Below, one piece after another: positions 3,412-56,849 of a stretch of DNA of 64,000 nt. The notes below the pieces were generated by a model. It did no database searches. It was not told the DNA's origin and saw only the letters and a program-made list of their open reading frames with translations. The position numbers were made by a program, and so were the translations under genes. Position 1 is the stretch's first letter; every line of letters begins with the position of its first letter. Source of the stretch: Chitinophagales bacterium (GTDB taxonomy: Bacteria > Bacteroidota > Bacteroidia > Chitinophagales > CAIOSU01); contig BPHB01000001.1 in assembly GCA_026003335.1 (NCBI GenBank), forward strand, positions 446,591 to 510,590, in the 5' to 3' direction.

Positions 3412-3582
3412 GAAAAATCAGGTTTATTAATCCTTATAGCTCGGTGCAGCAAACCAAGCCTTATTCAACCGAATTCCATTCGTTTTAAATAAAAATGAAG
3501 CCCTATTTCCCCAGTCCTTTCACCGGGAGTCAAGAAAAGCTTTTTCTAAATGCTTGGTTTAAAACTCTTTGATTCCAAGAAA

Positions 3583-3885
3583 TCAGAGCTGTTTGCACAT
3601 TCTCAAAAAGCGTTTTATCTCCGCATCATTTACACTATACCATATCTTTTTGCCATCCCGCTTTGTTTTGACAAAACCTGCTTCTCTGAGGATAGCAAGA
3701 TGTTGTGATGCTACAGATTGCTCTATACGAAGTTTAACGTATATGTCAGTTACGCATATTTTGTTGCCATTTGCTTTTATAACAGTTAAAATTTTTTGTC
3801 GTAACGGATGGAGTAAAGCCCGCACTCTGCCTTTCACGTTTTTCACTATTTCGTTCTGTTTTGCATTAAGGTAACTCATTTGCAT
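3583..3885 (-). CDS. ArsR-family winged-helix transcriptional regulator
   Basis: A 100-residue DNA-binding protein with the ArsR (HTH_5) layout. The first helix carries VRALLHPLRQKILTVIK, the recognition region reads IEQSVASQHLAILREAGFV, and a basic wing follows with KTKRDGKKIWYSVND. I see no Cys-x-Cys or other metal-sensing cysteine pair, so it may be a non-metal member like the BigR/SoxR-type or redox-insensitive subgroups; that is inference. Starts at codon 1 or at Met3 (3879) are both possible. No cognate efflux or metal gene lies next to it. The only neighbours are the FG-GAP gene, convergent, and the 750 bp gap upstream, where its own promoter and perhaps its operator should be. Confident for family, not for ligand. 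Confidence 0.85.
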   Translation of the reverse strand: MQMSYLNAKQNEIVKNVKGRVRALLHPLRQKILTVIKANGNKICVTDIYVKLRIEQSVASQHLAILREAGFVKTKRDGKKIWYSVNDAEIKRFLRMCKQL

Positions 3886-4632
3886 TAAATATTTCTTTTG
3901 TTAAATAATGATGTAAAATTAATTGATTTATGATTACTAAACTTTTATTTTGATAACTTTCAAATATAAATAGACGCACATTTCAGGTTTTTTAACAAAG
4001 ATTTACCCAAATTGTTTCCATTCACTTCAATTTTTACTGAGTTGCAAACGCAATAGTTCATACCATAAGTAAGAATTATCACGTTCGTAAGCATACATCC
4101 AAAAAAGCAACCCAAAAATCAATCTGGAATGTACGTATCGTTTTTAGGATTAGGATGTAGGGTCATTTAATTGAGCTTAACCGCGCAACCGGTTTAGTTT
4201 TATTCATGTTGTCAGACCACACAACAATGGCCGGTGCTTTTCTTATAATAGTCCAATTAGGCTTAAAGAGCCCCTGCGGGCTGTCCCCGAATAATAGCCA
4301 TAGCCACACCTTGCATGTGAGGCCGAGATTTTCAAATCCTAAAGGCTTCGTAACAGTAAAAGGATAACCCGTGACACTTCTATCCGCTATGTTAAAACAA
4401 AGCTGTCAGAACCCAAGCCCTGACTTCCCCTATCAGATTCTGTTTTGTATGGCAGGGTAACTATTGCTATCTTCCGCAATATCTGGCCATTTTTTATTTG
4501 CAGCAGGCATACAACCAAAAGAACTTCTCTTCAGTCATCTCAAGAGGGGTAAAGCCGATAAAGTACAGGAACTTTGTTTTGATTTTACCCGTAGTAATAA
4601 GTAAAATATGAAAGATAAAGGGTATTGCTTGA
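3886..4632. other. Gene-poor 747 bp interval
   Basis: No gene can be supported here. The first 200 bp are strongly AT-rich and lie upstream of the ArsR gene, so they probably contain its promoter. From 4163 to 4405 the minus strand has an 80-codon stretch without a stop. It has only one internal Met close to its end and no family I recognise, so it is at most a decayed gene remnant. The plus strand is also open in one frame over roughly 4400-4605 without a convincing start. Confidence 0.5.
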
Positions 4633-6081
4633 ATGAGCATGCATAATTTTTATGTTGACATACACTGCCATCCAAACCTGAAGGCCTTTAATAGCGGACA
4701 TCCGGAGCCGGTCCGCAATATGTGGGAGAGAATTGAGCATCCCTATACTGATAATGCATTGACCCGTTTATTCAGGAGAAAGTCCAACGCTATCGCCAAA
4801 TACTCTCAGTCTAACCTTTATACTCTGACCAAGGGAGGCGTGAGGGTGGCCATTATTTCGCTTTACCCTATTGAGAAAGGTTTTTTGCAGTTCAGACGGG
4901 TCCCCCACGCCATCTTTGGAGGTGAAACGGTCAACGATGTGCTAGAACATATCATGGCGGTACGTAAGGACCGCCTTGTTGCGCTTCAGCAGCAGGAGAA
5001 CCACTATTTTCATGAACTGGTGCGGGAATATGAGTATGTGAAAAACGGTCAGGGGAAAAGTCCTGATAACCGCTACGAATACTCCATAGCTGACAACTAT
5101 GCCCACTTACAAGAAATTCTAAGGAAGCCGGATACGATTGCCCTTATTCTTTCCGTGGAGGGAGCCCATGCCTTGGGATGCGGGAACCGCGTTACCGAAA
5201 ATATGACTCCAGACCAGCTGATAGAGGATTTAACCCGGAACATTGCCAGCATGAAAAGGTGGCATCATCCACCCTTTTTTATCAACCTTGCTCATCATTT
5301 CTGGAACCAGCTGTGCGGGCATGCCCCCAGTATTCCATTCCCTTTTAATCAACTGGTAAACCAGAACAAAGGGATGAACGAAGGCATTACACAATATGGT
5401 TGGCACGTTTTGCACGAATTACTGGGCAGGCACAATGGCAAGCGCATTCTAATAGATATCAAACATATGAGTGTAGCGGCCCGATTGCAGTATTACGAAT
5501 ATATCAGAAAGCATAATCGGTTAAATCCCAGGGATAAAATACCAGTCATTGCCAGCCATGTTGGCTTAAATGGCTATGAAACGATGAAGGAGTCCATAGA
5601 AAAAAGAGACTCCAATCGCAAGAGCAGAAACAGCTATCTGCACCGCAGAAGTATTAATCTGTCAGACGAGGAGGTAAGAATCATTCATGCCTCAGGTGGT
5701 TTATTAGGTATAATGATGGATAAGGGGAACCTTGCCGGCATAAAGACCTTGCAATATCTGAGCAGTATCCACGATGAAGAAAAGAAAAAAGAAGAATGGT
5801 GCCGGCTGATCTGGACCAATATCTTTCAGGCCATCAAAGCGGTGAAACAGCGATCAGCCTGGGACATTATAGCAATAGGAACGGACTATGACGGGGGTAT
5901 CTCCCATGTAGATCTTTACCAGAGCGCTGAAAACATGGGTGATCTGGAGAAAGACCTCATTACCTACCTTGACAAAACCAAATTTCACCGTGAACTTTGG
6001 TACGGATACCATCCCGATGAACTGGTTGCCAAAATAATGAGGGAAAATTCCATTGGATTCTTAAAAGCCCATTTTCAATAA
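4633..6081 (+). CDS. Membrane dipeptidase (peptidase M19)-like metallohydrolase
   Basis: Predicted zinc-dependent TIM-barrel hydrolase of the renal dipeptidase family, 482 residues. Metal ligands expected for M19 are visible: DIHCHPN at residues 9-15, a bridging Glu in SVEGAHALG near 174, His in LAHHFWN near 219, SHVGL near 306, and the terminal Asp in GTDYDGG near 415. The sequence is longer than classical M19 enzymes (about 330-400), with extra loops around residues 60-150 and a KKKEEW insertion near 385. There is no signal peptide, so it should be cytoplasmic. The start ATG at 4633 follows a weak purine stretch. A PLP enzyme follows after 3 nt, so the two are surely one transcript. The natural substrate cannot be told from sequence; M19 members cleave dipeptides, including those with D-residues. 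Confidence 0.8.
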   Translation: MSMHNFYVDIHCHPNLKAFNSGHPEPVRNMWERIEHPYTDNALTRLFRRKSNAIAKYSQSNLYTLTKGGVRVAIISLYPIEKGFLQFRRVPHAIFGGETVNDVLEHIMAVRKDRLVALQQQENHYFHELVREYEYVKNGQGKSPDNRYEYSIADNYAHLQEILRKPDTIALILSVEGAHALGCGNRVTENMTPDQLIEDLTRNIASMKRWHHPPFFINLAHHFWNQLCGHAPSIPFPFNQLVNQNKGMNEGITQYGWHVLHELLGRHNGKRILIDIKHMSVAARLQYYEYIRKHNRLNPRDKIPVIASHVGLNGYETMKESIEKRDSNRKSRNSYLHRRSINLSDEEVRIIHASGGLLGIMMDKGNLAGIKTLQYLSSIHDEEKKKEEWCRLIWTNIFQAIKAVKQRSAWDIIAIGTDYDGGISHVDLYQSAENMGDLEKDLITYLDKTKFHRELWYGYHPDELVAKIMRENSIGFLKAHFQ

Positions 6082-6084
6082 AGC

Positions 6085-7533
6085 ATGCCCGGACAAAAGA
6101 AAACATTTCCTGAAAAAGGGAGCACCGAAAATGCCTTGCTGGAAACCATGCAAGCCGCCCAAGCCCAGGATGCGCGCTGGCGTGAGGGGCGCACCTTCAG
6201 CATGGTTTTTTACCCAGGCATGGAAGCCGCTAAGATTCAGCAGGAAGCCTACCGCATGTTTTTCTTTGAAAACGGGCTGAACCCTTCGGCCTTTCCCAGC
6301 CTGCGGAAGTTTGAAACCGAGGTTGTAGCTATGTCGGCTGATTTAATGCACGGAGATGAACATGTTGTCGGGAATATGACCTTTGGCGGCACCGAAAGCA
6401 TCTTGTGCGCGGTTAAAGCTGCCCGTGAGTGGGCTCTTGAGCAAAAAAGGAATAGCTCTTTTCGTCCGGAGATGGTAGTGCCCTTGAGTGCGCACCCGGC
6501 TTTTGACAAGGCTGCACACTATTTTGGAATAACCATTCATCATGCCCCTCTTGGCCCCGACTATAGGGCCAACGTGGAGGAAATGCGCAAGCTTATTAAT
6601 GAGAATACTATCTTAATAGTAGGGTCAGCCCCGGCCTACCCTCATGGGGTCATTGATCCGATAGAAGAGCTGGGTAAGCTTGCTCTTGAGAAAAATGTAC
6701 TGCTGCACGTGGATGCCTGCGTGGGTGGATATATTCTTCCCTTTGTAGAAAGGCTGGGTTATCCGATACCTAAATTTGATTTCCGCGTTCCGGGTGTAAC
6801 CTCGCTCTCCATGGACTTACACAAATACGGATATGTCACCAAGGGCGCCTCTGTCATTCTTTACAAAAACTCAGAATTGCGCAAGAAACAGTATTTCGTC
6901 TATACCGGATGGCCTGGTGGTATTTATGCTTCTGCCACTGTTTCCGGCAGTCGGGGTGGAGGAGCCATTGCCGCATCTTGGGCTATGCTGCACTATATGG
7001 GCATAGAAGGCTACCTGAAAATGGCCAAAGCTGTGATGGAGGCTGTGGAAAAAATTAAAAAACGGGTGAGTGAAATAGAGGGCATCCATCTAGTAGGAAA
7101 TCCGGATGCCAGTGTGCTTGCAATCAGCTCAAATCACATGGATATATTTGGAATCGGTGACGAGCTCACAATGAAAGGCTGGCATATTGACCGCCAGCAA
7201 AACCCCGGTAGCCTCCACCTGACCATCACCTATGGTAACACCCCATATATAGATGAATTTCTGGAAGACCTAGAGCAGGCTGTGCGGGAAATGAGAAAAC
7301 CCAATCTGCACAAGCTATCTGCGAGGATGACCATTGGTCTGGTAAAAGGCGCATCCAAAATTCTTCCTCCCAAAACTATGAGCCGCCTGACCTCAAAATT
7401 TGGCAACAGGAAAAAGAAAGGTATTCCAAAGCGTTCTGCGGCCCTGTATGGCATGATGGGTGTACTGCCTAACAAAGGAGACCTCCGCCAGATTATACTG
7501 AATATGTTGGACGGTCTGAACAAAATGGATTAA
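6085..7533 (+). CDS. PLP-dependent lyase/decarboxylase, sphingosine-1-phosphate lyase-like
   Basis: Fold-type I PLP enzyme of the group II decarboxylase superfamily, 482 residues. The PLP-binding lysine is Lys247 in SMDLHKYGYVTKGASVILY. Upstream are GNMTFGGTESILCAVKAARE (cofactor phosphate loop) and LLHVDACVGGYILPF (the Asp that pairs with the pyridine nitrogen). The block YTGWPGGIYASATVSGSRGG is typical of sphingosine-1-phosphate lyases and their bacterial relatives, as is the N-terminal segment FYPGMEAAKIQQEAYRMFF. Eukaryotic S1P lyase has an N-terminal membrane anchor; none is present here, as in bacterial homologues. It sits 3 nt after the M19-like gene and overlaps the convergent DUF4920 gene by 4 nt. 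An S1P-type carbon-carbon lyase fits best, but a tyrosine or glutamate decarboxylase-like role is not excluded. Confidence 0.8.
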   Translation: MPGQKKTFPEKGSTENALLETMQAAQAQDARWREGRTFSMVFYPGMEAAKIQQEAYRMFFFENGLNPSAFPSLRKFETEVVAMSADLMHGDEHVVGNMTFGGTESILCAVKAAREWALEQKRNSSFRPEMVVPLSAHPAFDKAAHYFGITIHHAPLGPDYRANVEEMRKLINENTILIVGSAPAYPHGVIDPIEELGKLALEKNVLLHVDACVGGYILPFVERLGYPIPKFDFRVPGVTSLSMDLHKYGYVTKGASVILYKNSELRKKQYFVYTGWPGGIYASATVSGSRGGGAIAASWAMLHYMGIEGYLKMAKAVMEAVEKIKKRVSEIEGIHLVGNPDASVLAISSNHMDIFGIGDELTMKGWHIDRQQNPGSLHLTITYGNTPYIDEFLEDLEQAVREMRKPNLHKLSARMTIGLVKGASKILPPKTMSRLTSKFGNRKKKGIPKRSAALYGMMGVLPNKGDLRQIILNMLDGLNKMD

Positions 7534-42572: not shown

Positions 42573-43601
42573 CTACCCCTTTATGTTACGCTCATTCAGC
42601 GCCTTTTGAAATTTTCGGGCGTTTCGTAAATGCTCTCTATAGGTACGCGCAAAAACATGCCTGCCTGAAAAATCATCCCGGGCGCAGAAGTATAAGTAAT
42701 CATGTTCTTCTGCCTGCAGCACCGCTTCAATGGAGCTCTTTGACGGAATGCAAATCGGGCCGGGCGGCAGGCCCTTTACCATATAGGTATTATAAGGTGA
42801 ATACTGACGGATATGGTGATGCAGCACCCTGCGTGCTTCAAAATTCTGCATGGCATATTTCACAGTAGGGTCAGCCTCCAGCTTCATGCCTTTTCTTAAA
42901 CGGTTGAGGTAAACGCCCGCAATAGTTGTTTTTTCCGGATCATAGTTGGTTTCTTCTTCTACAATAGAAGCAAGAATAATTACCTCAACAGGTGAGAGAT
43001 TAAGTTGCTCAGCCTGTTGCAGCCTTCGGCTATTCCAATAATTGCGAAACTCTCTATGCATGCGTTCAATAAACTTCTCTGCAGAAGTATTCCAGTAAAA
43101 TGCATACTGATCAGAAAGAATTACGGCAAGGGCATTGTGGGGATTCAGCCCATACGTTGCAAGAAATGCAGAATCCTCCAGCAGAGCCATAAGGCGGGTT
43201 GAGTCAGCCTCCAGCTTTCCTGCAATGAAGCCGGCCAGCTGACTCTTGGTGCGATATTTCCCTATGTACACATGGACAGGATCCTGTTGCCCTGACCGCA
43301 ATTTTGAAACTATTTCTTTGTTCGTCATGCCTGGAGTTATAAGGTACCTTCCGGGCTTTACCTGCTGCGGATAGCGCATCCTTTTGGCCAACCAGCAGAA
43401 TGCTTCCATATCACGAATGACGCTATCTCTCTCCAGAATAGCCACCACTTCATCAAAACTGGCACCCGTTGGGATAAAGAGGCTATAAGCCTTTTCGGAT
43501 AAAACATTGCGCCCCAAAATGCGCGTATGCAGCATCCAGGCAGCAACAGCCAGGGTTGCTGCTGCCACACAGGCCAACAGGATATAAACACCTTTTTTCA
43601 T
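42573..43601 (-). CDS. mltG: Endolytic transglycosylase MltG
   Basis: Lytic transglycosylase anchored in the cytoplasmic membrane, thought to end growing glycan strands. 342 residues from the ATG at 43601, just one base from the preceding stop (TGATG); a GTG one codon upstream is the alternative. A membrane helix lies at 2-20 (KKGVYILLACVAAATLAVAA). A LysM-like part follows (SFDEVVAILERDSVIRD), then the YceG domain with the catalytic Glu in EVIILASIVEEETNYDPEKT near 219 and AGVYLNRLRKGMKLEADPTV. MVKGLPPGPICIPSKSSIEA is the usual C-terminal signature. Last gene of a six-gene operon that includes a D-Ala-D-Ala ligase, so the operon has a peptidoglycan theme. Confidence 0.94.
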   Translation of the reverse strand: MKKGVYILLACVAAATLAVAAWMLHTRILGRNVLSEKAYSLFIPTGASFDEVVAILERDSVIRDMEAFCWLAKRMRYPQQVKPGRYLITPGMTNKEIVSKLRSGQQDPVHVYIGKYRTKSQLAGFIAGKLEADSTRLMALLEDSAFLATYGLNPHNALAVILSDQYAFYWNTSAEKFIERMHREFRNYWNSRRLQQAEQLNLSPVEVIILASIVEEETNYDPEKTTIAGVYLNRLRKGMKLEADPTVKYAMQNFEARRVLHHHIRQYSPYNTYMVKGLPPGPICIPSKSSIEAVLQAEEHDYLYFCARDDFSGRHVFARTYREHLRNARKFQKALNERNIKG

Positions 43602-45514
43602 CACCTATTATTCATGCCCGATACACGCTGCAGGGCTTCTGCAGCAAGCGGGCTGTGGGGATTCACCTTTTGCAGCCGTTCAGCAAACTCCGTCACCTGC
43701 TCCTGTGCCCCTACATGCAGAGCCAATGCAAGACGGTTAGTCAGCGACAGCTCATGATCGGGATTCAGCGACAGCGCTTTATCCAGACATTCTTTTGCCC
43801 GTTCATAATTCCCTTCCCTCATTAGGAGATAGCCCAGATTACACCAGGCTGATTCAAACTTAGGCTGCTCCACGATGATCCGGTGGTAAATATCTTTTGC
43901 CTCATCATAACGGCCCAGTTGAATAAGGGCGGCAGCCAGTTTATTTTGAAAATCCGGATAAAAAGACAGCTTAGCGTTGGCCTGCAAAAAATAATCATAA
44001 GCGGGACGATAATTGCCCAGTTGGTAGTGTGCTTCTCCGATACGATAGTAGGTCCATGGCTCGGCTGAAGACTGCTCGTTTAGCTTCAAAGCCGTTTGAA
44101 CAACCTTTTCAAAGTTGCCCTGCAGGAAATAGTAGTGTATCTTTTCTTCTATTGCCGATGTATCGCGGGAAAGGTAGTATTGAGCAGAATCCAGCAGATA
44201 GCCGCGCGGACTGAATTTTTCATAAAATTCCAGGTAGGCACGCGCCATTACAGAGGCAGACACCTCAGGTTGTGTATAGCACTTAAGCCTTAAATAATCG
44301 GCCACAGCATCTATTTCGGCTGTATCAGCCGAGGCATAGTTCTTCCGGATAAAATGATCAGTGATAGATACATGCGGAATATCAATGCTCCCCGACCTGG
44401 GCATGTGGCAGCCGATACAGTTATCGGCTTCCTTGCCGGAAAGAGATGCTACAGCGGGGCAGGTTGCCTTGCCTCCTGGGTGACAGCTGATGCACCTGGA
44501 GTTAAACACTTCCCGGGGTGTTTCTTTTACGCTCACATGCGGATTATGACAAGTAATACACGTCATCTGTGATTGCTGGTAGCATTTACTCATGCGCAAC
44601 CGCTGTGCCTGCGAAGCCATGATAAACTTGTCCTGATGATGCTGCGATTCAGGAAGAAAAACGTCCATCACTTCGGATAAGTGCATACCCGGCTTAAAAT
44701 CACTGAATGATTTGCCCTTTCTCAGAATGGCAAGGCCCTGCAAATGACAACGCTGGCACAGGCTCATTTGTAGTTCTTTGGTGAGCCGGGCAGGATTTAC
44801 TATAGAATAATCCGTAAAGCGTGACGTATCTACCCGAATGCCGTTTTGTTTTTGTCTGACGTGCTCGCCTCCCGGCCCATGGCAGCGCTCGCAATCAATG
44901 CCCATGGGCACCAACGCATATTTATTTACTGAACCGGCTTCCATCTGTGGCAGACCGTTATGACAGCTCATACACTCCATTTCAATCGGACGGGAAAAAC
45001 GGGAATTAAATCCTCCTGAAAATCCAGGAGCCAGATCCCATGTTTTTCGCTGGGTATAAAAAGTTATGGGAGCCTGATAGAGATAGCCATTGAAGCTGCA
45101 GATATGGGAGTTGGTGTGCTGTCCGGAGCCAATTATAAAATCAATGCGCTCTGTACGGGCATATATGGTGTCTTTCCCCCGCAACCTGTATTCCAGCACA
45201 AAGAGGGAATCTTCTTTCCAGAAGGGCTGGTAATAAAAATTTTTTATGGAATCATACACCGCCAGATGATGAAATTCGGCTGCACTTTTTACGGGCGTTG
45301 CGGGTCCGAATGAACTGCCCATGCCCGTACGTATGTAACTTTCATAAATATGCGCATGGCAGCCACGGCAGGTCTGCATGCCCACATAAGCCACCGTATC
45401 CGACAGATTCAGATAGGAGCCGGCAGAGGGCTTTTCTTTTCTGCCGCAATGCGGAAAAATGAACAGACAGGAAACAACCACCACAGCGGCTGTACAGGTA
45501 AGCCGTTTCTTCAT
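43601..45514 (-). CDS. Seven-heme c-type cytochrome with TPR domain, lipoprotein
   Basis: A 637-residue protein with a lipoprotein signal: TCTAAVVVVSCLFIFPHC, so probably anchored on the periplasmic face of a membrane. Residues 45-400 hold seven CxxCH heme-binding sites: CRGCH, CMSCH, CERCH, CQRCH, CITCH, CISCH and CIGCH, arranged like the cytochrome c554/c-prime group. Residues 440-630 hold tetratricopeptide repeats (AEPWTYYRIGEAHYQLGNYR, FESAWCNLGYLLMREGNYER). This multiheme-plus-TPR design is found in several phyla, and its partners are mostly unknown. It overlaps mltG by one base and follows the DCC gene by 9 nt. No quinol or terminal oxidoreductase gene is near. Confidence 0.9.
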   Translation of the reverse strand: MKKRLTCTAAVVVVSCLFIFPHCGRKEKPSAGSYLNLSDTVAYVGMQTCRGCHAHIYESYIRTGMGSSFGPATPVKSAAEFHHLAVYDSIKNFYYQPFWKEDSLFVLEYRLRGKDTIYARTERIDFIIGSGQHTNSHICSFNGYLYQAPITFYTQRKTWDLAPGFSGGFNSRFSRPIEMECMSCHNGLPQMEAGSVNKYALVPMGIDCERCHGPGGEHVRQKQNGIRVDTSRFTDYSIVNPARLTKELQMSLCQRCHLQGLAILRKGKSFSDFKPGMHLSEVMDVFLPESQHHQDKFIMASQAQRLRMSKCYQQSQMTCITCHNPHVSVKETPREVFNSRCISCHPGGKATCPAVASLSGKEADNCIGCHMPRSGSIDIPHVSITDHFIRKNYASADTAEIDAVADYLRLKCYTQPEVSASVMARAYLEFYEKFSPRGYLLDSAQYYLSRDTSAIEEKIHYYFLQGNFEKVVQTALKLNEQSSAEPWTYYRIGEAHYQLGNYRPAYDYFLQANAKLSFYPDFQNKLAAALIQLGRYDEAKDIYHRIIVEQPKFESAWCNLGYLLMREGNYERAKECLDKALSLNPDHELSLTNRLALALHVGAQEQVTEFAERLQKVNPHSPLAAEALQRVSGMNNR

Positions 45515-45923: not shown

Positions 45924-48140
45924 TTATAACTTAATAAACCGGATTGACCAGCTTTTTTTACCTGCCACTAGCAGTCGTGCACAATACAACCCGGGAGCCA
46001 ACGAAGAAACATCTACTTCCCGCCCGGGTTGATGAAAGGTTGCTACTCTTGCTCCGTTGAGATTAAATATTTCTATCTTGTCAGGCGGCTGAGGAACGGC
46101 AAAATACAGTTTGTCCGTAGCGGGATTAGGATAGGCATAAACCTTTCCCGCATCGGCCTGCGGCTTGGTTATTGCTGTGGGTAATGGTAACGGACGAGGA
46201 CCAACTACCGGCCGGATCATGGGTGCACCGCGAATGATAGATTGTTTCCACTTCCCATCAGTGTAATAAAACACATGCTGCCGGGCGTCATTATTCAGGT
46301 CTAACCCTACCTGAAAATTCTCTTCAAGAAGTTGTTGCCAGCCGACATAAAATATGCCTGCAGGAATGAACACAGCCGAATCCAACGGATAAATACCGAA
46401 TGCATTATATTCCGGAAGGTATTGAAACCGTACGCCATCCCGGGCATACAAAGTATCTTCCCCTACTCCATCATTATCCAGATCAATACTGCGCCATACG
46501 GTAATTGTGAATTCCTGGGTAGTAAGCTGGTAGTTTATCTGGGTAAAATGAATCAGAATTGCCCGCAGAGAATCGTCTTTATTGAGTTTGAACTCATAGG
46601 CAAATTTCTTCAGGCCGCTCCCCTGCAGGCCAATGGCTTTTTCGGCCGATCCATCATCATAAGCGAAATAGTTCACAAAATGCACAAAAGACGCTACAGT
46701 ATCATTGTCTTTGGATACCGGATTGGCATTGATTTCTACCATACGGGCCTCAGTGGCGATAATCACTGTGTCAGTGTTCGCTGGAGCAAAAGAAGCAAAG
46801 TAGGTACTATCAGGTCGGGTCACCTGCAAAGTGCCGAAGGGCGTAATCTGGGTATTTATATCGGCATCGGTATAGATAGGCGTGCCGGAATGTCTTTCAT
46901 AGGCATAATAATAATATTGTGCTTCCTGGGTAGTGTTGTAGTTGTTATGAATAGAATAAGAAAAAGATCCCTGCATTTCCTGTTGCTTAAAATCCCGGAA
47001 ATGCTCCCAGGGCATGGAGGTATAGTTCTTCAGAAAATTGGATGGCGCATTGCCGATAGCCAGGTCTTCAATATAACCTGTGCCGGCTGTACGGTTGCGG
47101 TTCAGATATACGTAATCCAGATGCCAGTGATCATTGTTGCCGGTAATGGAGGCGTAGTTGCGAAAGCGGAACTGAAAGGCTCCCGTGAAGTAAAAAGCCT
47201 TGTTGGGTAAGCTGCCCAAATCAATCTCCACATAACGAAAGCTGGTATCCGTTAAAATGGAATCTGAGCCTGGGGTAGCCCATATCCTTTCCCAAACATT
47301 ACCCGTAAGTTTGAATTCCAGAATAAGCGAATCTTCCTCATCCGGGCGGTCGCCTAAACCCTGGGTTTGGTAAAGAAAACTGAGTATCACGCCACTGGTA
47401 TCCAGGCCAAGCAGGTTAATAGGCTTAGAGGTCAGTGTATCAGCCGGACCATAGGTGATGCCACTGTTGGCGTTATGCGGTAGTCCGTATGCATTCAACC
47501 CATCCAGGGTCGCCACACCGTAACTGAGTTTTCTGGCCGGATAATTATCATTGATGAAAGCATAATTATCCATCCAGTATGCACGTGTATCTTTCACCAG
47601 ATGATAAACAGAATAGCGGATTACAGAATCCGGACTCACCTCCGTGCTATCCACTACATTACCGGTGAGCGAATCAAAGGTATAACGATAGTATAAAGGC
47701 CAGCCGGTAATGGTATCAGTAGGCTGAAGCGTATTGCCCGGATCGTTGTGAAATATAAACTGAAAAGGGGCTTTCGGTGTGGAGTCCACTTGTTGCGTCA
47801 AAACGTTAAAAGAATAATTCCACGAGGTGTCCCGCATCCATTTTAATTCATAAATGGCGCCTTTTAACAATGTGCTGTAAATAGTCATCACAACCGGAAG
47901 GCCAGCAGTGTCATAAGGTTTGAGATGGTATTTTGAAAAATCATCAGAAAAGGGAAGTTGCAGCGTATCGGGATACACCAGAAAATTATCTGCCGGCAAA
48001 GATTTCATAGCTGCTTCAGCCCCCGCAGGGAAATGCCGGTGATATAATACCGGATTATATGTTAAATCAGAAACTACCAGTTGGGCAGAGAGGTTGCCTG
48101 CCCCCCACAGAATGAAAAAGAAAAGAGAACAATATTTCAT
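45924..48140 (-). CDS. Large T9SS type A sorting-domain protein
   Basis: A 738-residue secreted protein. Signal peptide MKYCSLFFFILWGAGNLSA. The rest up to about residue 655 is beta-rich and matches no family I can name; it has the general look of large unannotated Bacteroidota exoproteins, with AYAYDDG-like stretches (NYFAYDDGSAEKAIGLQGSG) and HWHLDYVYLNRN. The sorting domain is at 660-738: VYAYPNPATDKLYFAVPQP ... IEIFNLNGARVATFHQPGRE ... SSLAPGLYCARLLVAGKK. The start overlaps the PASTA gene stop (ATGA). Its place within a peptidoglycan operon hints at a surface role tied to the envelope, but nothing in it is enzyme-like. Confidence 0.85.
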   Translation of the reverse strand: MKYCSLFFFILWGAGNLSAQLVVSDLTYNPVLYHRHFPAGAEAAMKSLPADNFLVYPDTLQLPFSDDFSKYHLKPYDTAGLPVVMTIYSTLLKGAIYELKWMRDTSWNYSFNVLTQQVDSTPKAPFQFIFHNDPGNTLQPTDTITGWPLYYRYTFDSLTGNVVDSTEVSPDSVIRYSVYHLVKDTRAYWMDNYAFINDNYPARKLSYGVATLDGLNAYGLPHNANSGITYGPADTLTSKPINLLGLDTSGVILSFLYQTQGLGDRPDEEDSLILEFKLTGNVWERIWATPGSDSILTDTSFRYVEIDLGSLPNKAFYFTGAFQFRFRNYASITGNNDHWHLDYVYLNRNRTAGTGYIEDLAIGNAPSNFLKNYTSMPWEHFRDFKQQEMQGSFSYSIHNNYNTTQEAQYYYYAYERHSGTPIYTDADINTQITPFGTLQVTRPDSTYFASFAPANTDTVIIATEARMVEINANPVSKDNDTVASFVHFVNYFAYDDGSAEKAIGLQGSGLKKFAYEFKLNKDDSLRAILIHFTQINYQLTTQEFTITVWRSIDLDNDGVGEDTLYARDGVRFQYLPEYNAFGIYPLDSAVFIPAGIFYVGWQQLLEENFQVGLDLNNDARQHVFYYTDGKWKQSIIRGAPMIRPVVGPRPLPLPTAITKPQADAGKVYAYPNPATDKLYFAVPQPPDKIEIFNLNGARVATFHQPGREVDVSSLAPGLYCARLLVAGKKSWSIRFIKL

Positions 48141-48955
48141 GGTTCAGTAAACATAGTGTCTGCCGTATATTGTTTCAGGTATTCCGGCAGATTTTGAGTT
48201 AAGAAAATATCCACGGGCTCACCGTAATTGAGTCGTTGAGGAGCAGCAGGATCATATTCTGGCAGCTGTCTGTACACCACAGCAGTGGATGAGTCCGTGA
48301 TGGTGTTATCCCACTTAACAAATCCGAGATTGAGGTTGCTGGAAGTAAGCACCCATTTGGCTTCTTCCAGAGTTCTGCCGATAAGATTGGGCACATCTAC
48401 TGTTGTATCGCCCAGTCCGTTTCCTAATACCAGGTCAATTTTAGAGCCTTTGGGAACCAATGTGCCCGGTTCTATTTCCCTGCCGTTATAACGTTGTTCC
48501 AACACCACATTCAAACCCAGATCAGGGCGATAAATGAGCTCCCCTACCTGCAGACCAAGGCTTTCCAGAATGGGAGTTACTACTCTGAGGTTTTTATTTA
48601 CCAGACTGGGCATTTTTACTTTAGGCGGCACTGTAGAATTAACGGTGACATATACTTTTCTGTTTTCTTTCACTTTTGACAAAGGAGGCGGATCCTGGTC
48701 CAGCACGGTTAGAGGAGGCTTCCCTACGACATAAGACGAATCCATGATAAAATAATCCAGCCTGCGGTTTTGAAGCAAAGTGCTTACTTCGTCAATAGTT
48801 AACCCGCGCAGATCAGGAACGGTAATCGTTTCGCCATGATGTGTGTAGGCTTTCAGATACCACATAGCACCTTGTACCAACAGCAGGACCACCGCCACTG
48901 CCGCAACAAGGTTAATCCAGAAATACTTTGAGCGTAAAAAATCAATAATGCTCAA
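48137..48955 (-). CDS. Membrane protein with three PASTA domains
   Basis: About 272 residues. The frame is open from 48994, but residues homologous to the family start (SIIDFLRSKYFWIN) follow a TTG at 48955, so I take TTG as start; there is no ATG in the N-terminal part. One membrane helix (LVAAVAVVLLLVQGAMWYL) is followed by three PASTA domains: ITVPDLRGLTIDEVSTLLQN, VKMPSLVNKNLRVVTPILES and VDVPNLIGRTLEEAKWVLTS. PASTA domains bind muropeptides, but here no kinase or transpeptidase is attached, as is common in Bacteroidota. The gene overlaps the end of the ligase gene by 14 nt and the next gene by 4 nt, so all are translationally linked. Confidence 0.88.
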   Translation of the reverse strand: MSIIDFLRSKYFWINLVAAVAVVLLLVQGAMWYLKAYTHHGETITVPDLRGLTIDEVSTLLQNRRLDYFIMDSSYVVGKPPLTVLDQDPPPLSKVKENRKVYVTVNSTVPPKVKMPSLVNKNLRVVTPILESLGLQVGELIYRPDLGLNVVLEQRYNGREIEPGTLVPKGSKIDLVLGNGLGDTTVDVPNLIGRTLEEAKWVLTSSNLNLGFVKWDNTITDSSTAVVYRQLPEYDPAAPQRLNYGEPVDIFLTQNLPEYLKQYTADTMFTEP

Positions 48956-51629
48956 CCTTGTGTTTTTTGAAGCTAAATTCCAAAATTTTGTCAATAAAGG
49001 CGTAAGGGGTATAGCCGCTGAGTGCAGCCTGATGAAAGATACAGGTTGCAGGTGTCATTCCCGGCAGCGAGTTTACTTCTATGATAATCGTTTCCACCTG
49101 CATATCTTTTGTAACACGCACAAAAGCATCAATCCGGCAATAGCCTTCTATGTGCAGAATTTTTGCAGCCCGTTCCAAATCTTTTTTAACACAGGATGTA
49201 ATAAAACGATATTCTTCCTCATTGGCTCCTAACCGGGCGGGAGTAATGTTTTGCCCTTCACCGGCAAGAAATTTTTCTTCCAGCGACAGCACCTCTCCCC
49301 CGGCAAGGGTTTCAGAAGGTTCAAACACCTCATACTGTATCGTGCCATCATCAGCCATATGGGTTAACATACCGCAGGTAATCTCCATGAAATACTTTGC
49401 ATTGCCCCGCGTGATAAAGTCTTCAACGAGCACAGTTTGTAACTGAGGAAACTCTTCTTTAGGTTTTAGCTTAAGGGCGTCCGCAAGCTTCTTGTCTGGC
49501 TGTGATGCGTCCCGAAAAGCCATCAGCAGATAGTATTTCAATTCTTCTTCTGAAGCTATTTTTTTTACTGCCGAGCTGCACCCTTCGTCCACCGGCTTGG
49601 CAATAAGCGGGAACCCGTGTTTAGATACAACCTGTTGAATAATTTTTTGCGGATGACGAAGGAAATCATCTTTCAAAACAAGGGTTTGTCCGGCTACTTT
49701 AAAGCCATGTTGTTTCAGAATCTGATTGGTTTCAAATTTATTGATGGTGATACGGGAGGAATAAACGCCCGAACCGTTGTAGGGCACGTGTAAAGCATCC
49801 AGCTTACTCTGCACTCTCCCATCCTCCCCGGGGCGCCCGTGCAGGGCTATGAACACTGCATCCACTTCGGTAGCCAGATCTTCATAGGTGATCTGAATCG
49901 GTTCAAATAAAGGCGATTCGTAGGCATATTTGTCCGTAATTCCCCTGGCTGCGCGCTTAATGGCATCCAATACGGGATGCTGGCGAAAGGTGATAATTTT
50001 TTCGCGTATGTCATCGGCATTATCTTTCAGCAAAATATTTACCGGAATCTTGTAAAGCTGATGCTCTTCCAGTGTGCCGGTAAGGAAAACCGGGACAGGC
50101 TCATACTTATCTGAGGAAGCCAGCTTTTCATAAATATTCCTTCCGCTTTCCACTGAAATATGCCTTTCGGTGGAGATACCTCCCAGCAGAACGGCTACTT
50201 TTCTTTTGCGCTTTGCTCCGCTGCGCATCAATATGAGCTCATTGCTGAGCTGCTCACGCAGCCTGACGATGCGTATATTTCCCGCTCCGGACCGTATGCG
50301 CTCCTCCAATGATGTCAAAATGATATAGGTAAGAAACTGGGATGGATTTAAACCTATTTCAGCCGCCTGATGAAAAAAGAAAGAGGAAGGCAGCATACCG
50401 GATGTGGTGTTTGGGTCATTCAGGTAAATGGTGCCATCCGCTTTAATGAATCCGTCAATGCGGGCATATACATGAAAGCCAAAGAAATCAAACAGTTCTT
50501 CACACGCCTTACGGATGTTTTCAATTTTTTCAGGCGGCAGGTTTATGGGTGTTACCTTGCGCGAAAGTCCTGCAAGATATTTTGAACGATAATCATAAAC
50601 CTCTCCGCCTTTGATAATTTCCGTTGGCGGCAGGGCCAGCGGCCGGCCATCAGTGTTGCGCACAACGATGCAAGAAAATTCTTTCCCTTCAATAAACTCT
50701 TCAATCACCACTTCGCTTTCGCTATCTGCTCCCTCCAGCAGGAGAGGTTTATCGTGCTCATAAAAATATCGGTCAATAAATTCCATCAGCTCTTCGGGGT
50801 GGTAAATAGTCTTCCTTCCCGACAACACCGGCAGGCCTATGCCCTCACGTATGTCCACAAGATTACGGATACAAGCTACTTGGCCATCTGGGCTGAGTGC
50901 CTGCCATTCCCCCTTTGTCATGCTGTAGAGGAAGAAGCCCTTTTGCACAGCACGTATAAAAAGGGTTTTATCGGCTTTGTCTACAATACTAACCCCGATA
51001 GATGAACCTTGGTTGGCAGGCCTTACAACCAGTTTATCACCGCCCAGTTGTTGCGCCAGCCTGAAAATCTCATCTTGTCGTGCACGTGTCTGCCACTCGT
51101 GTCGTGATACAGTGATGAACTGTGGAGTGGGTCGCCCGCATGCTGATAACAGCCGTTTTTGAAAAGCCTTGTTCATGCCGATAGCCGAAGGCAAAATGCC
51201 CGAGCCACTGTAAGGGATGCCCAATCCCTGAAGTATGCCCTGTATTACTCCATCTTCCCCGTAAGATCCGTGCAGGGTAAGAAACGCAAAATCAATAAGG
51301 CGGGGAAGCTCCTCCAGTGTGATTTTTTGACCCACCGTTGCTATCATCCGATTAAGGGTCTGCTCATCCATGCTACCCAAACTTTCCAGATAGACCTGAA
51401 AGCGATGCGGACTGTCAGGAAGAAATGCAACCGGAGGATAAAAATCGCGGATGGTTCCTTTGTAAATATGCTGCCAGTTGAGCAGCACAAAGTTTCTGAG
51501 ACTATCCACAAATATCGGGACGGGTTCAAAAAGGGTTTTGTTCAGATTATCATAAACCGTGCGGCCTCCGGCAAAAGAAATTTCTCTTTCGCGGGAAGGA
51601 CCTCCAAACAGTATTCCTACTTTGAGCAT
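48942..51629 (-). CDS. Double-length D-alanine--D-alanine ligase (two fused ATP-grasp ligases)
   Basis: 895 residues, more than twice the usual 310-370. The N-terminal ligase (1-460) shows VGILFGGPSREREISFAGG, FLTLHGSYGEDGVIQGILQG, MNKAFQKRLLSACGRPTP, VVRPANQGSSIGVSIV and an end LNDPNTTSGMLPSSFFFHQA. The C-terminal ligase (475-895) shows VAVLLGGISTERHISVESG, FIALHGRPGEDGRVQSKLDA, INKFETNQILKQHG, LIAKPVDEGCSSAVKKI and IIEVNSLPGMTPATCIFHQA. Each half keeps the nucleotide and metal motifs but each deviates: Asp replaces the usual Glu of E-x-N in the first half, and GSSxGV becomes GCSSAV in the second. One half may be catalytic and the other regulatory, or both may work. First gene of the operon down to mltG. 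Confidence 0.9.
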   Translation of the reverse strand: MLKVGILFGGPSREREISFAGGRTVYDNLNKTLFEPVPIFVDSLRNFVLLNWQHIYKGTIRDFYPPVAFLPDSPHRFQVYLESLGSMDEQTLNRMIATVGQKITLEELPRLIDFAFLTLHGSYGEDGVIQGILQGLGIPYSGSGILPSAIGMNKAFQKRLLSACGRPTPQFITVSRHEWQTRARQDEIFRLAQQLGGDKLVVRPANQGSSIGVSIVDKADKTLFIRAVQKGFFLYSMTKGEWQALSPDGQVACIRNLVDIREGIGLPVLSGRKTIYHPEELMEFIDRYFYEHDKPLLLEGADSESEVVIEEFIEGKEFSCIVVRNTDGRPLALPPTEIIKGGEVYDYRSKYLAGLSRKVTPINLPPEKIENIRKACEELFDFFGFHVYARIDGFIKADGTIYLNDPNTTSGMLPSSFFFHQAAEIGLNPSQFLTYIILTSLEERIRSGAGNIRIVRLREQLSNELILMRSGAKRKRKVAVLLGGISTERHISVESGRNIYEKLASSDKYEPVPVFLTGTLEEHQLYKIPVNILLKDNADDIREKIITFRQHPVLDAIKRAARGITDKYAYESPLFEPIQITYEDLATEVDAVFIALHGRPGEDGRVQSKLDALHVPYNGSGVYSSRITINKFETNQILKQHGFKVAGQTLVLKDDFLRHPQKIIQQVVSKHGFPLIAKPVDEGCSSAVKKIASEEELKYYLLMAFRDASQPDKKLADALKLKPKEEFPQLQTVLVEDFITRGNAKYFMEITCGMLTHMADDGTIQYEVFEPSETLAGGEVLSLEEKFLAGEGQNITPARLGANEEEYRFITSCVKKDLERAAKILHIEGYCRIDAFVRVTKDMQVETIIIEVNSLPGMTPATCIFHQAALSGYTPYAFIDKILEFSFKKHKVEHY

Positions 51630-51768: not shown

Positions 51769-54492
51769 TCACGGCTTTGGCATATATACCATGGGTGCAA
51801 GCAACTGTTGGTCTCTCATGGTAAGCTTCAGAAAATAGGTTCCCTGCGGAAGATCAGAGATATCAAATGCCATATTGCAATAATCCGAAATACTGGCTGG
51901 CGGAAACAGCCGAAGTGTTTGTCCCAGCGCATTCAGCAAAGAGAGTTGCCCATCGACCGAAAGCATCGGGTACAGATGTATCCCAAATGTGCCGCTATGT
52001 GGATTGGGAATAATCTGCATGTGCCCGTGCATTCTGTCTGAAAATTGGTCTGCCCGAAAAGCAGTCATACTATCAGTAATCTGAATCAAGCCATCATAGT
52101 ATATCGCTGTAATCTCCTGAAAGCCAGAATCTGACACTTCCAGCGCAAGAGGATTACTCGCAAAAACAACGGGCGTTTCAGCTCCGGCATTTCCTTTTAA
52201 AGTAAACCGCATGGTGAAGAGAACAGCCGAATCCGGCCGGGTCACTCCGGTCAAGGAAGTATCATACCATGCATACCTGATTTTTCCGAAAGGAATTTCG
52301 TTCAACCCAAAACCGACAACAGACAGGCCCGGAAGCCCCATATAAGTGATCGAGTCCACTCGGGCCACTGCCGTATCAAACAGCAGGGTACCTTGCATGG
52401 AAAGTATATTTTGAAACCGAAGCCCACGTACGGAAATTTCCACTTGCCTGCCGGGAAGACCACCTGCTGAATCGGCAAACAGCACGGCAGCCGGAAGAGG
52501 CAAACTCGTTTTGGCTATTTGTGGATCCCAGCTCTGATTGACGTCTCCCAGTTTAATGGCTATAAAATCCTGATTCGTAAAAGTTCCGGCTGATGTAATC
52601 ACCAGAAAAGAATCTGTTGCTTCAGCAAACGGATGCAGGGAATCAGAAAAAATTTTGCCAGACGGCAGAAAACGCCATATCCGATGGCCGGGCAAAGTTT
52701 CCTCATAGCCCAAAAGCAACGCAGTAATATGTGGAAGATCTGACGAAGAAACAACATCATCCCCATCCACGTCAGCAGCCAGTATTTTGTAGGGAGAGTT
52801 AAGAAATCCCTTCCCGGCAAAATGCCGTTTTATGAGCGCCACATCCAGGATAGATAGTCCATTCATGATATCTGCGTCATGCCCTCTGAAGGGTGTTAAC
52901 GTGCATCCGGACGATGGAAGATTACTAAACGCAAAATGACCCGCGGAATCCGTGACAACCGTCATCGGGCCACAATCTGCCATCAGTGTAACCCCTTCCA
53001 CCGGCATACCCGCTTCTGTGTATACCGTGCCGGTAACAGTAAGTGCTGCTGCAACGGAAAAAGGAATGCAATACACATTATTTTGCTCATCGGCTTCAGC
53101 AAGCGTATTAAACTGATCGGCAGCAACTACCAGATAATAACCACCGGGGGAAGTACTGCCCGGGATGTTCACCTGATGCATCTCTGTCTCGGAGTTATCA
53201 GACATTTCGGAAACTGTCAGCGTTCCCCCATTAAAATGGGGCATCTGAGGAATATGGACAGGGCAACCCTGAGTCAGATTCATTAAATAGTAACCGATTT
53301 CTGTAGTAGCATTAACACTACCGGGGCCCACATTGCTGATTGTATATTCCAGAGTAATTACACCACCGGGCAAACTTACCGCAGGAGTTACTGATCCTTG
53401 TGTGATAACCAAATCGGGCAAAGCAGGTGCAGGGGGATGGGCGATGCAAATGTCAAAGTCAGGAGTAAGTGGGTCAAGGGTACCGTAATCATAAATTCTG
53501 ACATAATACAAATTCCCAGGAATGAGAGCCGAAGTGGTAATCCTTTCTACTCCGCCCAATCCTCCGGTATCAACGCACGCCACTTCCTGATTACAGGCTG
53601 TGTACAGGGAAAGCACAGCATCAAAATCAGAGGAGCCGGCCACGGTTATGGTATGCGTGGGTTGAATAGCCTGGAAAACGAACCAGACGTCTTTCAGGGA
53701 GGGCCCGGAAAAGCCATCACAGGTTGGTTGTGGCAGGCCGCTGACAGTGGCTCCCGCTACGCTGCCACCAACCGGTTGACAGGATAGGCTTGAAATCAGT
53801 TGTTGTGCCTGTGCACAGTTGTCATTTGCAGGTGAAGAAATGCTTCCGCTGCAAAAACTCTGTAAGTCATTTTGCAGGGCCATGTAATATGCCTTAGCAA
53901 ATTGACCCTGCCAGTAGGCATCCTGTAGTTTGGCCAGATCAGACGGATTATCAAAAAAGCCTATCTCATTCAGACATCCGATGGCATTATTGTTATCCAG
54001 CACCCCCAGATGAAATCCCAGATAGGTGTTGTCTTCCACTACCCTCCTGTTCGCCCATTGACCATAGCTCACCATCTGATTCTGCACCGCAGTGGCAAAA
54101 GCCTGGGCAGCGGCATCATTGGAAGGGCTCACATTACACCAGAATGTTTCAGTTCCCGTGCCTCCTCCCGCATTGGCATGAATACTGAGAAAACGATCGG
54201 CTCCCCAGGAGTTAGACATGGTTTCCCGCTGCGTGAGCGTAGGACATTGGCCACAGGCATTACTGGTACGGGTGAGATATACTGTCCAGCTGCAGTGGGT
54301 CTGTATGGTATCACGCAGCTTAAGGGCAACCGCCATGACAGTAAGTACCTCCCCATCCGGGCGGTCGCAGTTCTGGCATGAGGCATACACTCCATGACCC
54401 GGGTCAATGACAATGATCTGCCCGTAGGCTGAAAGATTTACTATGCACAGAATGCACAGAATACCCAGAGTAAAGAGGTGAAAAGTACGCAT
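51769..54492 (-). CDS. Secreted N-acetylmuramoyl-L-alanine amidase with dockerin, cohesin-like and T9SS domains
   Basis: A 907-residue modular exoenzyme. Signal peptide (HLFTLGILCILCIVNLSAYG). Amidase_3 at about 25-215: IIVIDPGHGVYASCQNCDRP, DRFLSIHANAGGGTGTETFW and CLNEIGFFDNPSDL supply the zinc ligands and catalytic Glu. A pre-peptidase-like domain follows at 225-345 (ANDNCAQAQQLISS, VWFVFQA), then a CARDB domain (DLVITQGSVTPAVSLPGGVI), a small prealbumin-like fold (VTGTVYTEAGMPVEGVTLMA), dockerin-like repeats at 538-592 (NGLSILDVALIKRHFAG, ADVDGDDVVSSSDLPHITAL), a cohesin-like region at about 665-785 (VEISVRGLRFQNILSMQGTL) and the sorting domain at 825-907 (IIPNPHSGTFGI). It cleaves peptide stems from peptidoglycan, probably outside the cell. 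It starts 3 nt after the TolB-like gene stop. Confidence 0.87.
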   Translation of the reverse strand: MRTFHLFTLGILCILCIVNLSAYGQIIVIDPGHGVYASCQNCDRPDGEVLTVMAVALKLRDTIQTHCSWTVYLTRTSNACGQCPTLTQRETMSNSWGADRFLSIHANAGGGTGTETFWCNVSPSNDAAAQAFATAVQNQMVSYGQWANRRVVEDNTYLGFHLGVLDNNNAIGCLNEIGFFDNPSDLAKLQDAYWQGQFAKAYYMALQNDLQSFCSGSISSPANDNCAQAQQLISSLSCQPVGGSVAGATVSGLPQPTCDGFSGPSLKDVWFVFQAIQPTHTITVAGSSDFDAVLSLYTACNQEVACVDTGGLGGVERITTSALIPGNLYYVRIYDYGTLDPLTPDFDICIAHPPAPALPDLVITQGSVTPAVSLPGGVITLEYTISNVGPGSVNATTEIGYYLMNLTQGCPVHIPQMPHFNGGTLTVSEMSDNSETEMHQVNIPGSTSPGGYYLVVAADQFNTLAEADEQNNVYCIPFSVAAALTVTGTVYTEAGMPVEGVTLMADCGPMTVVTDSAGHFAFSNLPSSGCTLTPFRGHDADIMNGLSILDVALIKRHFAGKGFLNSPYKILAADVDGDDVVSSSDLPHITALLLGYEETLPGHRIWRFLPSGKIFSDSLHPFAEATDSFLVITSAGTFTNQDFIAIKLGDVNQSWDPQIAKTSLPLPAAVLFADSAGGLPGRQVEISVRGLRFQNILSMQGTLLFDTAVARVDSITYMGLPGLSVVGFGLNEIPFGKIRYAWYDTSLTGVTRPDSAVLFTMRFTLKGNAGAETPVVFASNPLALEVSDSGFQEITAIYYDGLIQITDSMTAFRADQFSDRMHGHMQIIPNPHSGTFGIHLYPMLSVDGQLSLLNALGQTLRLFPPASISDYCNMAFDISDLPQGTYFLKLTMRDQQLLAPMVYMPKP

Positions 54493-55568: not shown

Positions 55569-56849
55569 ATGCTCAGCCGTCTTAAAAAAATTCTGATACT
55601 GGCAGGCGTATATCTCACGTATTTCCCTTTACTGGTATGTACTTTTATTGTGGTTTTTCTGGACAGAAAATCAGGCCTCCCCTTATCGTTTCCGCGTGAC
55701 GTCAAAAAGCTTTCCGGAAGAAAGGAATGGTGCATTCATGTACTGAAGAAGGCCGGGGCTATTCCGCAAGGAGCAGTGGTGAATGATTTTATTGTAATTC
55801 CGCTTAAACAGGAAATCATTTTTCGCTCCAACGCAGCCCGTATAGAAATTACTTATCGGGAAGGAGATCAAACCCAAACCTTAACATGTTTTGCCAAGTT
55901 TGCTCCAACAGTGGGCAGCACATGGAATCGTACCATATTTACCATTCAGCTAAACCATATTAAGGAAATTTTTTTCAACCGTTATTTTGTAAACCAGGAT
56001 AACCTGCCGGCTCCGAAGGTGTACTATGCTGATATGTCAGCTATCACGGGCAATCTATGCCTGATTACGGAATACATGGCCGGATGCACAGAATTTTTGG
56101 AAGGACATTATTCCGGCTTTACCGATGTGCATCTGCACATGGTGATGCATCATCTTGCCTCCCTGCATAGCCGCTATTGGCACGACCGGTCGGCACGGAT
56201 GAGGAAGATACTTCCTATTCATGCGACCACTGTGGACCTTTTTGAGTCCTTTGTATCTCTTTCCTGGAGCCGTTACGCCAGAAAAATCGTAGTGCAAAGC
56301 TGGAACTACTGCAACCAGCAGGAAACAGTAATTCACGGAGATGCCCGCATAGGCAACATGTTGTTCCCCGGTGAAAACGGAGAAGGCCGCTTTGTATTTA
56401 TAGACTGGCAGGCTGTAAGAAAAGGCAAAGCGGCTTTTGATGTGGCATATTTTATAGTACTTAGTCTGGACAGCACCTATCGTCAGAGTATAGAGATTGC
56501 AGCACTGGACTACTATCATCAGCAACTGATTGCTTGCGGGGTTACAAACTATGACCGGCAGCAACTGGAAGAAGATTATAAACATGCCTGCCTTTGTCTG
56601 CTGGTATTACTGTCGCTTCCTATGTTAAGCGGAGAGGCAAGTGTGGAGGGTGACAGCGCCTTGATTTTTGCTTATGGGCTGAACATCTGGCGGGAACGCC
56701 TGCAGCAAAAATTTTCTTCATTTGACTATGCTTGGCTGGCTGACCGCTATGGTATGACACAAGCACAGGGACAAGGAGCAGTGGCCGAGATGCTCGGGGT
56801 GATGGAAAAACGAATTCGTCTGTTGCAGACGGGAAAATACACCAGCTGA
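55569..56849 (+). CDS. Membrane-anchored EcKinase/CHK-like phosphotransferase
   Basis: A 426-residue protein kinase-fold small-molecule kinase. It opens with a membrane helix (ILILAGVYLTYFPLLVCTFIV, residues about 9-29; positively charged before it). The kinase body resembles ecdysteroid or choline kinase-like proteins: FAKFAPTVGS (ATP-binding lysine near residue 115), EIFFNRYF, LITEYMAGCTEFLEGHYSG (hinge), the catalytic HGDARIGNMLFPG near 256, and the metal Asp in FVFIDWQAVRKGKAAFDVAY near 279. Such kinases are best known in insects and scattered in bacteria. The presence of an N-terminal anchor suggests action on a lipid or membrane-bound alcohol, which is inference. DUF2461 follows 25 nt later. 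Confidence 0.78.
   Translation: MLSRLKKILILAGVYLTYFPLLVCTFIVVFLDRKSGLPLSFPRDVKKLSGRKEWCIHVLKKAGAIPQGAVVNDFIVIPLKQEIIFRSNAARIEITYREGDQTQTLTCFAKFAPTVGSTWNRTIFTIQLNHIKEIFFNRYFVNQDNLPAPKVYYADMSAITGNLCLITEYMAGCTEFLEGHYSGFTDVHLHMVMHHLASLHSRYWHDRSARMRKILPIHATTVDLFESFVSLSWSRYARKIVVQSWNYCNQQETVIHGDARIGNMLFPGENGEGRFVFIDWQAVRKGKAAFDVAYFIVLSLDSTYRQSIEIAALDYYHQQLIACGVTNYDRQQLEEDYKHACLCLLVLLSLPMLSGEASVEGDSALIFAYGLNIWRERLQQKFSSFDYAWLADRYGMTQAQGQGAVAEMLGVMEKRIRLLQTGKYTS

Follow-up and report, generated by a model that had tools for sequence, protein, structure and literature searches.

A double-length D-Ala-D-Ala ligase with two divergent halves is the only detected Ddl of many Bacteroidia

We analysed a 64,000-nucleotide stretch of DNA (the window) from a Chitinophagales bacterium (contig BPHB01000001.1, positions 446,591 to 510,590). 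At 48942–51629 its minus strand carries a gene for an 895 amino acid protein in which two D-Ala-D-Ala ligase (Ddl) modules are joined in one chain. This double form is the only Ddl detected, replacing the usual single-length form, in about 40% of the surveyed genomes of the class Bacteroidia. Antibiotics target Ddl, a textbook enzyme that has been studied as separate chains. No description of a Ddl-Ddl fusion was found in the open-licence PMC literature, and the double Ddl is a widespread variant of a known enzyme family that has apparently been overlooked. The explanation that we favour, and hold about as strongly as we doubt it, is that the two modules form a covalently fused Ddl that has subfunctionalised, the N-half being a D-Ala-D-Ala ligase and the C-half an active ligase with a different substrate.

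Gene structure and domain architecture

The reading frame extends from an ATG at 51629 to a stop codon at 48942–48944 through 895 unbroken codons. The first-pass annotation, made from the letters of the window, had listed this frame, which is indeed present and uninterrupted; its strand is the minus strand, the plus strand of the same interval containing many stops. Pfam domains above the Pfam cut-offs comprise two copies of Dala_Dala_lig_N and a split Dala_Dala_lig_C in both halves, in agreement with the earlier description of two full, divergent Ddl modules on one chain. The tandem arrangement stood, with the boundaries now placed at about residues 1–467 for the N-half (50229–51629, minus strand) and 468–895 for the C-half (48945–50228, minus strand). 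The motifs that had been read in the two halves are also real, namely GGPSRERE/GGISTERH, LHGSYGEDG/LHGRPGEDG, GSSIGV/GCSSAV and NDPN..GM/IEVN..GM. All matches in a PDB sequence search were Ddl-family ligases, as were the top matches of a Foldseek search with the AlphaFold model (pLDDT 88.9, pTM 0.88).

Against TIGR01205, with a cut-off of 245.65, the whole protein scores 367 bits, the N-half alone 213 and the C-half alone 161. The whole protein thus passes the cut-off because two sub-threshold halves add up, and automated annotation would label it a plain "D-alanine--D-alanine ligase". Perhaps it is for this reason that the double form has been overlooked.

The genome of this bacterium (3.9 Mb, ~100% complete) was searched with the protein, which matched this gene alone. 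The remaining matches to PF07478 were frames of other sizes, including one of 950 amino acids that was matched twice, and by frame size and profile position they resemble other ATP-grasp enzymes. A second, single-length ddl, for which the first-pass annotation had proposed a search, was therefore not found by either route, and the 895 amino acid protein is the only Ddl found in this genome.

Active-site residues of the two halves

Eighty-seven doubles (70 once those with N-halves more than 80% identical were dropped) were aligned and mapped on E. coli DdlB, whose numbering is used below except where residues of the window's own protein are given. All 87 N-halves possess E15, S150, Y216 and S281, together with D at position 270. 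In the window's protein these correspond to E14, S209, Y351, S416 and D405, and K144 is replaced by R203 in this copy. The C-halves retain E15, K97, K144, E180, E187, K215, R255, D257, E270 and N272 in 87/87 sequences, and the ATP/Mg residues of the window's C-half (K631, K678, E736, E749, R832, D834, E851 and N853) are intact. Just as uniformly (87/87), the C-halves carry C150, F216, T281, L210, L212 and H17; in the window's protein C684, F787, T862, L781, L783 and H490 replace S150, Y216, S281, Y210, Y212 and E17, respectively. The E15-S150-Y216 triad with S281 is accordingly found in every N-half and in no C-half, where E15 is kept and is followed by C, F and T in all 87. The Mg ligands at 257, 270 and 272 are D/E/N in the C-half and D/D/N in the N-half, again in 87/87, and the invariant columns were confirmed on 69 sequences.

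Two of these substitutions had been recognised from the sequence at the outset: the "D-x-N" of the N-half is D405-P-N407, that is E270 to D, and the "GCSSAV" of the C-half is S150 to C. Both are real, and the most telling change, Y216 to F in the C-half, had been missed. Decay of the C-half was considered and is contradicted by its conservation, which equals that of the N-half (mean pairwise identities of 0.545 and 0.53, respectively). Since the asymmetric residues are invariant and the C-halves are as similar to one another as the N-halves, specialisation rather than decay is indicated, as the earlier reading had supposed.

The omega/acceptor loop of the C-half, LSLEEKFLAGEGQN (residues 781–794; 49248–49289, minus strand), is nearly invariant. 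It is also the least confident region of the model, residues 781–785 and 787–792 having a pLDDT below 50, as would be expected of a mobile omega loop acting as a flexible lid.

Origin and distribution

A gene tree of both halves, as had been recommended, placed the N- and the C-halves each in a clade of its own, the two being sisters. FastTree supported the C clade and the N+C grouping at 1.0 each; IQ-TREE gave UFBoot values of 100 for the C clade, for the N-halves with the truncated N-only forms described below, and for the union. The sister group of N+C consists of 18 single-length Ddls, all but one of them from Bacteroidota. Since the halves are sister clades, the simplest history suggested by the trees is a single internal duplication of a Bacteroidota ddl followed by fusion.

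The C-half was matched at E≤1e-30 in 161 of 396 genomes of the class, lying in a long frame except at contig breaks; as a separate gene it was never seen among these 396. Roughly half of the same-order genomes (n=41) have the double form or pieces broken at contig ends, and the others having a match possess a single-length ddl of ~320–410 amino acids. Contigs with GTDB names that carry the double belong to Chitinophagales, Saprospirales and Hymenobacter. In a sample of 118 genomes from the phylum, the only matches were in the window's genome and one further genome of the same class, so that, as far as this sample goes, the fusion is restricted to the class. On an rpoB tree of 30 genomes the double and single forms are intermixed across the class, even inside families, and later losses or transfers must therefore be frequent; the tree is compatible with either an early origin and many losses or lateral transfer. 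One contig labelled "Rickettsiales bacterium" (L053) has a double Ddl with a PASTA neighbour and is probably a mislabelled or mixed MAG.

A truncated form in one family

In family f86, all four sampled genomes (G249, G286, G370 and G336; 6.4–8 Mb; loci L168–L171) have a frame of 558–590 amino acids that comprises a complete N-half and about 100 further residues, which match the beginning of the C-half (E 1e-11 to 1e-5) but have lost its GGxSxERHIS motif. At L169 the stub is followed by a stop codon and then by a terminator-like hairpin. The corresponding part of the window's protein, the linker and first lobe of the C-half, lies at residues 441–568 (49926–50309, minus strand). In the AlphaFold model of the truncated form (pLDDT 89.9, pTM 0.90) the stub is a confident folded lobe. 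No other Ddl was detected in these four genomes by a TIGR01205 search; an extra match of 328 amino acids in G249 was rejected as a second Ddl since it is without the Ddl motifs.

The placement of the f86 sequences is weak, FastTree putting them outside the other N-halves with support of 0.40 and IQ-TREE inside them with a UFBoot value of 66. The remnant of the C-half is stronger evidence for loss than this placement. We infer that the catalytic core of the C-half was lost in f86 and that a structurally useful lobe was retained. The truncation would then mean that the N-half is enough for the essential reaction and that the C-half has another role; the essential D-Ala-D-Ala ligase is probably the N-half. 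These truncated forms offer a ready-made natural experiment.

Possible functions of the two halves

Both halves share the fold, the motif order and, apart from the N-half substitutions at 270 and, in this copy, 144, the ATP/Mg residues of E. coli DdlB; the N-half also shares the E15-S150-Y216 triad. The protein differs from DdlB in having two fused modules, E270 changed to D in the N-half, a rebuilt pocket in the C-half, and halves that each fall under the NCBIfam cut-off. In the mechanism that we propose, tandem duplication of a Bacteroidota ddl and a single fusion event would have given rise to the double gene, which would then have become the cell's only Ddl. The N-half would act as an ordinary D-Ala-D-Ala ligase, in which the first D-Ala is phosphorylated by ATP, giving an acyl phosphate that the second D-Ala attacks. 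The C-half probably forms a built-in pseudo-dimer partner with ATP and Mg bound, and would most likely catalyse a second, related ligation in which its remodelled D-Ala/acceptor pocket (C150, F216, T281, L210, L212 and H17) takes another substrate. The contrast originally drawn between such a chain and the Ddl homodimer is softer than was claimed, since Ddl dimerisation is recurrent yet sometimes weak (PMC6899670).

Several observations count against parts of this explanation. The catalytic core of the C-half is dispensable in f86, none of the neighbouring genes points to a second substrate, no VanX-type M15 peptidase was found, and the fully conserved ATP-site residues could also serve ATP sensing. 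In the N-half, the change of E270 to D falls on a metal ligand, and K144 is R in this copy; each half alone, moreover, falls under the curated NCBIfam cut-off for Ddl.

The strongest rival, which we rate clearly below an active C-half and still take seriously, holds that the C-half is a silent pseudo-enzyme partner, lending the N-half stability as a built-in pseudo-dimer and acting as an allosteric sensor of ATP or D-Ala-D-Ala. The triad is broken in every C-half, and in f86 the intact N-half is accompanied by just one folded lobe of the C-half, its first, as if this were structurally needed. Silent partner enzymes, however, usually lose some of their ATP/Mg residues, whereas here all of them, including E270 and N272, are invariant, as is most of the flexible loop LSLEEKFLAGEGQN.

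Phe in place of Tyr at position 216 sets D-Ala-D-Lac activity in the Ddl of lactic acid bacteria (PMC5996685), and the C-halves have this change in common with the F-type Ddl of Leuconostoc and Lactobacillus, F787 being invariant (87/87). The C-half might thus be a depsipeptide ligase of the F-type, with D-Ala-D-Lac or a comparable ester of a D-hydroxyacid as its product, and one protein would then make both kinds of precursor. We consider this improbable, since the F-type Ddl of Latilactobacillus (L. curvatus) and VanA keep S150 and S281 and are without the L210/L212 pair, whereas the C-half has C and T at the former positions and Leu at both of the latter; in addition, no VanX-type M15 peptidase was found in the genome. 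The pocket of the C-half differs in sequence from that of the dipeptide ligases and from those of both depsipeptide ligases in the comparison. A depsipeptide as the second substrate, suggested in the first-pass annotation, is consequently weakened: Phe is present at 216, but the remaining pocket is unlike that of the F-type Ddl and VanA.

Even less probable is that both halves make D-Ala-D-Ala and that the fusion merely fixes dosage or dimerisation; each half belongs to the Ddl family and keeps most catalytic residues, but the substrate-pocket positions differ in every homologue and one family dispenses with the core of the C-half. Finally, a misassembly or chance joining of two neighbouring ddl genes, the objection that the first-pass annotation had named beforehand, is rejected as vanishingly improbable and found no supporting evidence, given that independent assemblies, Hymenobacter isolates among them, have the identical architecture at 42–62% identity, that such homologues occur in 161 of the 396 class genomes, and that each half forms one clade, sister to the other.

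The pocket comparison and the lack of a VanX-type M15 peptidase lead us to prefer an active C-half ligase with a different substrate over a silent partner, a depsipeptide ligase or a second D-Ala-D-Ala site. Of the two readings offered in the first-pass annotation, a catalytic half paired with a regulatory one and two halves with different substrates, both are still plausible. A more far-reaching version, in which the specificity of the C-half is new for any Ddl and one enzyme, tied to a membrane PASTA sensor, makes two cell-wall building blocks (or passes its product from site to site) across a large part of the class Bacteroidia, is put forward tentatively and with more doubt than belief. 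It raises the question of whether the cell-wall precursors of these bacteria hold something besides D-Ala-D-Ala.

Two known systems bear comparison. The MurC-Ddl fusion (PRK14573) is likewise a natural fusion of Ddl, but has MurC as the partner and one Ddl; the double scores 162 bits against this model (cut-off 1015), and no MurC domain was found on the 895 amino acid chain. CarB, the large subunit of carbamoyl phosphate synthetase, sets a precedent, as its ATP-grasp halves are duplicated, fused and specialised for different steps (PMC6022934). It differs in belonging to another ATP-grasp family and in having a known reaction sequence and an ammonia supply, and serves as an analogy only.

Gene neighbourhood

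The ddl gene is the first of a conserved cassette, followed by a gene for a PASTA membrane protein and then by one for a T9SS-secreted protein. The former (48137–48994, minus strand) overlaps the 3' end of ddl and encodes a single-TM PASTA-domain protein of 285 amino acids counted from a TTG, the true start being uncertain. The latter (45924–48140, minus strand) encodes 738 amino acids with a T9SS sorting tail and no other Pfam domain. Among loci with long flanks, a homologue of the PASTA family is present at 23 of 27 doubles and 5 of 8 singles, and a T9SS-tailed protein at 22/27 and 0/8, respectively. A single-TM PASTA protein adjoins ddl in many Bacteroidota, in double and single forms alike. 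At two loci, L049 (a Lewinella MAG; 3596–7318) and L151 (G346; 1447–5046), Ddl-Ddl-TM-PASTA is found in one polypeptide, the TM segment having been read by eye. By Rosetta-stone reasoning, these fusions suggest that the ligase works near the membrane under a peptidoglycan-binding sensor.

Directly upstream of ddl lies a gene (51769–54492, minus strand) for a T9SS-tailed N-acetylmuramoyl-L-alanine amidase with CARDB and other domains. Further genes in the window encode a multihaem cytochrome-like protein with TPR repeats (43601–45514, minus strand), which matches decahaem families, and a kinase-like protein (55569–56849, plus strand) matching the EcKL/DUF1679/APH families, which are best known from animals. 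Elsewhere in the genome, MurF has two matches over the cut-off (G000:C1:1674022-1675260 and G000:C2:1095787-1097085). One lies in a frame of 842 amino acids which, from its length, we take to be a candidate for the fusion of MurF with alanine racemase that is known from Bacteroidota.
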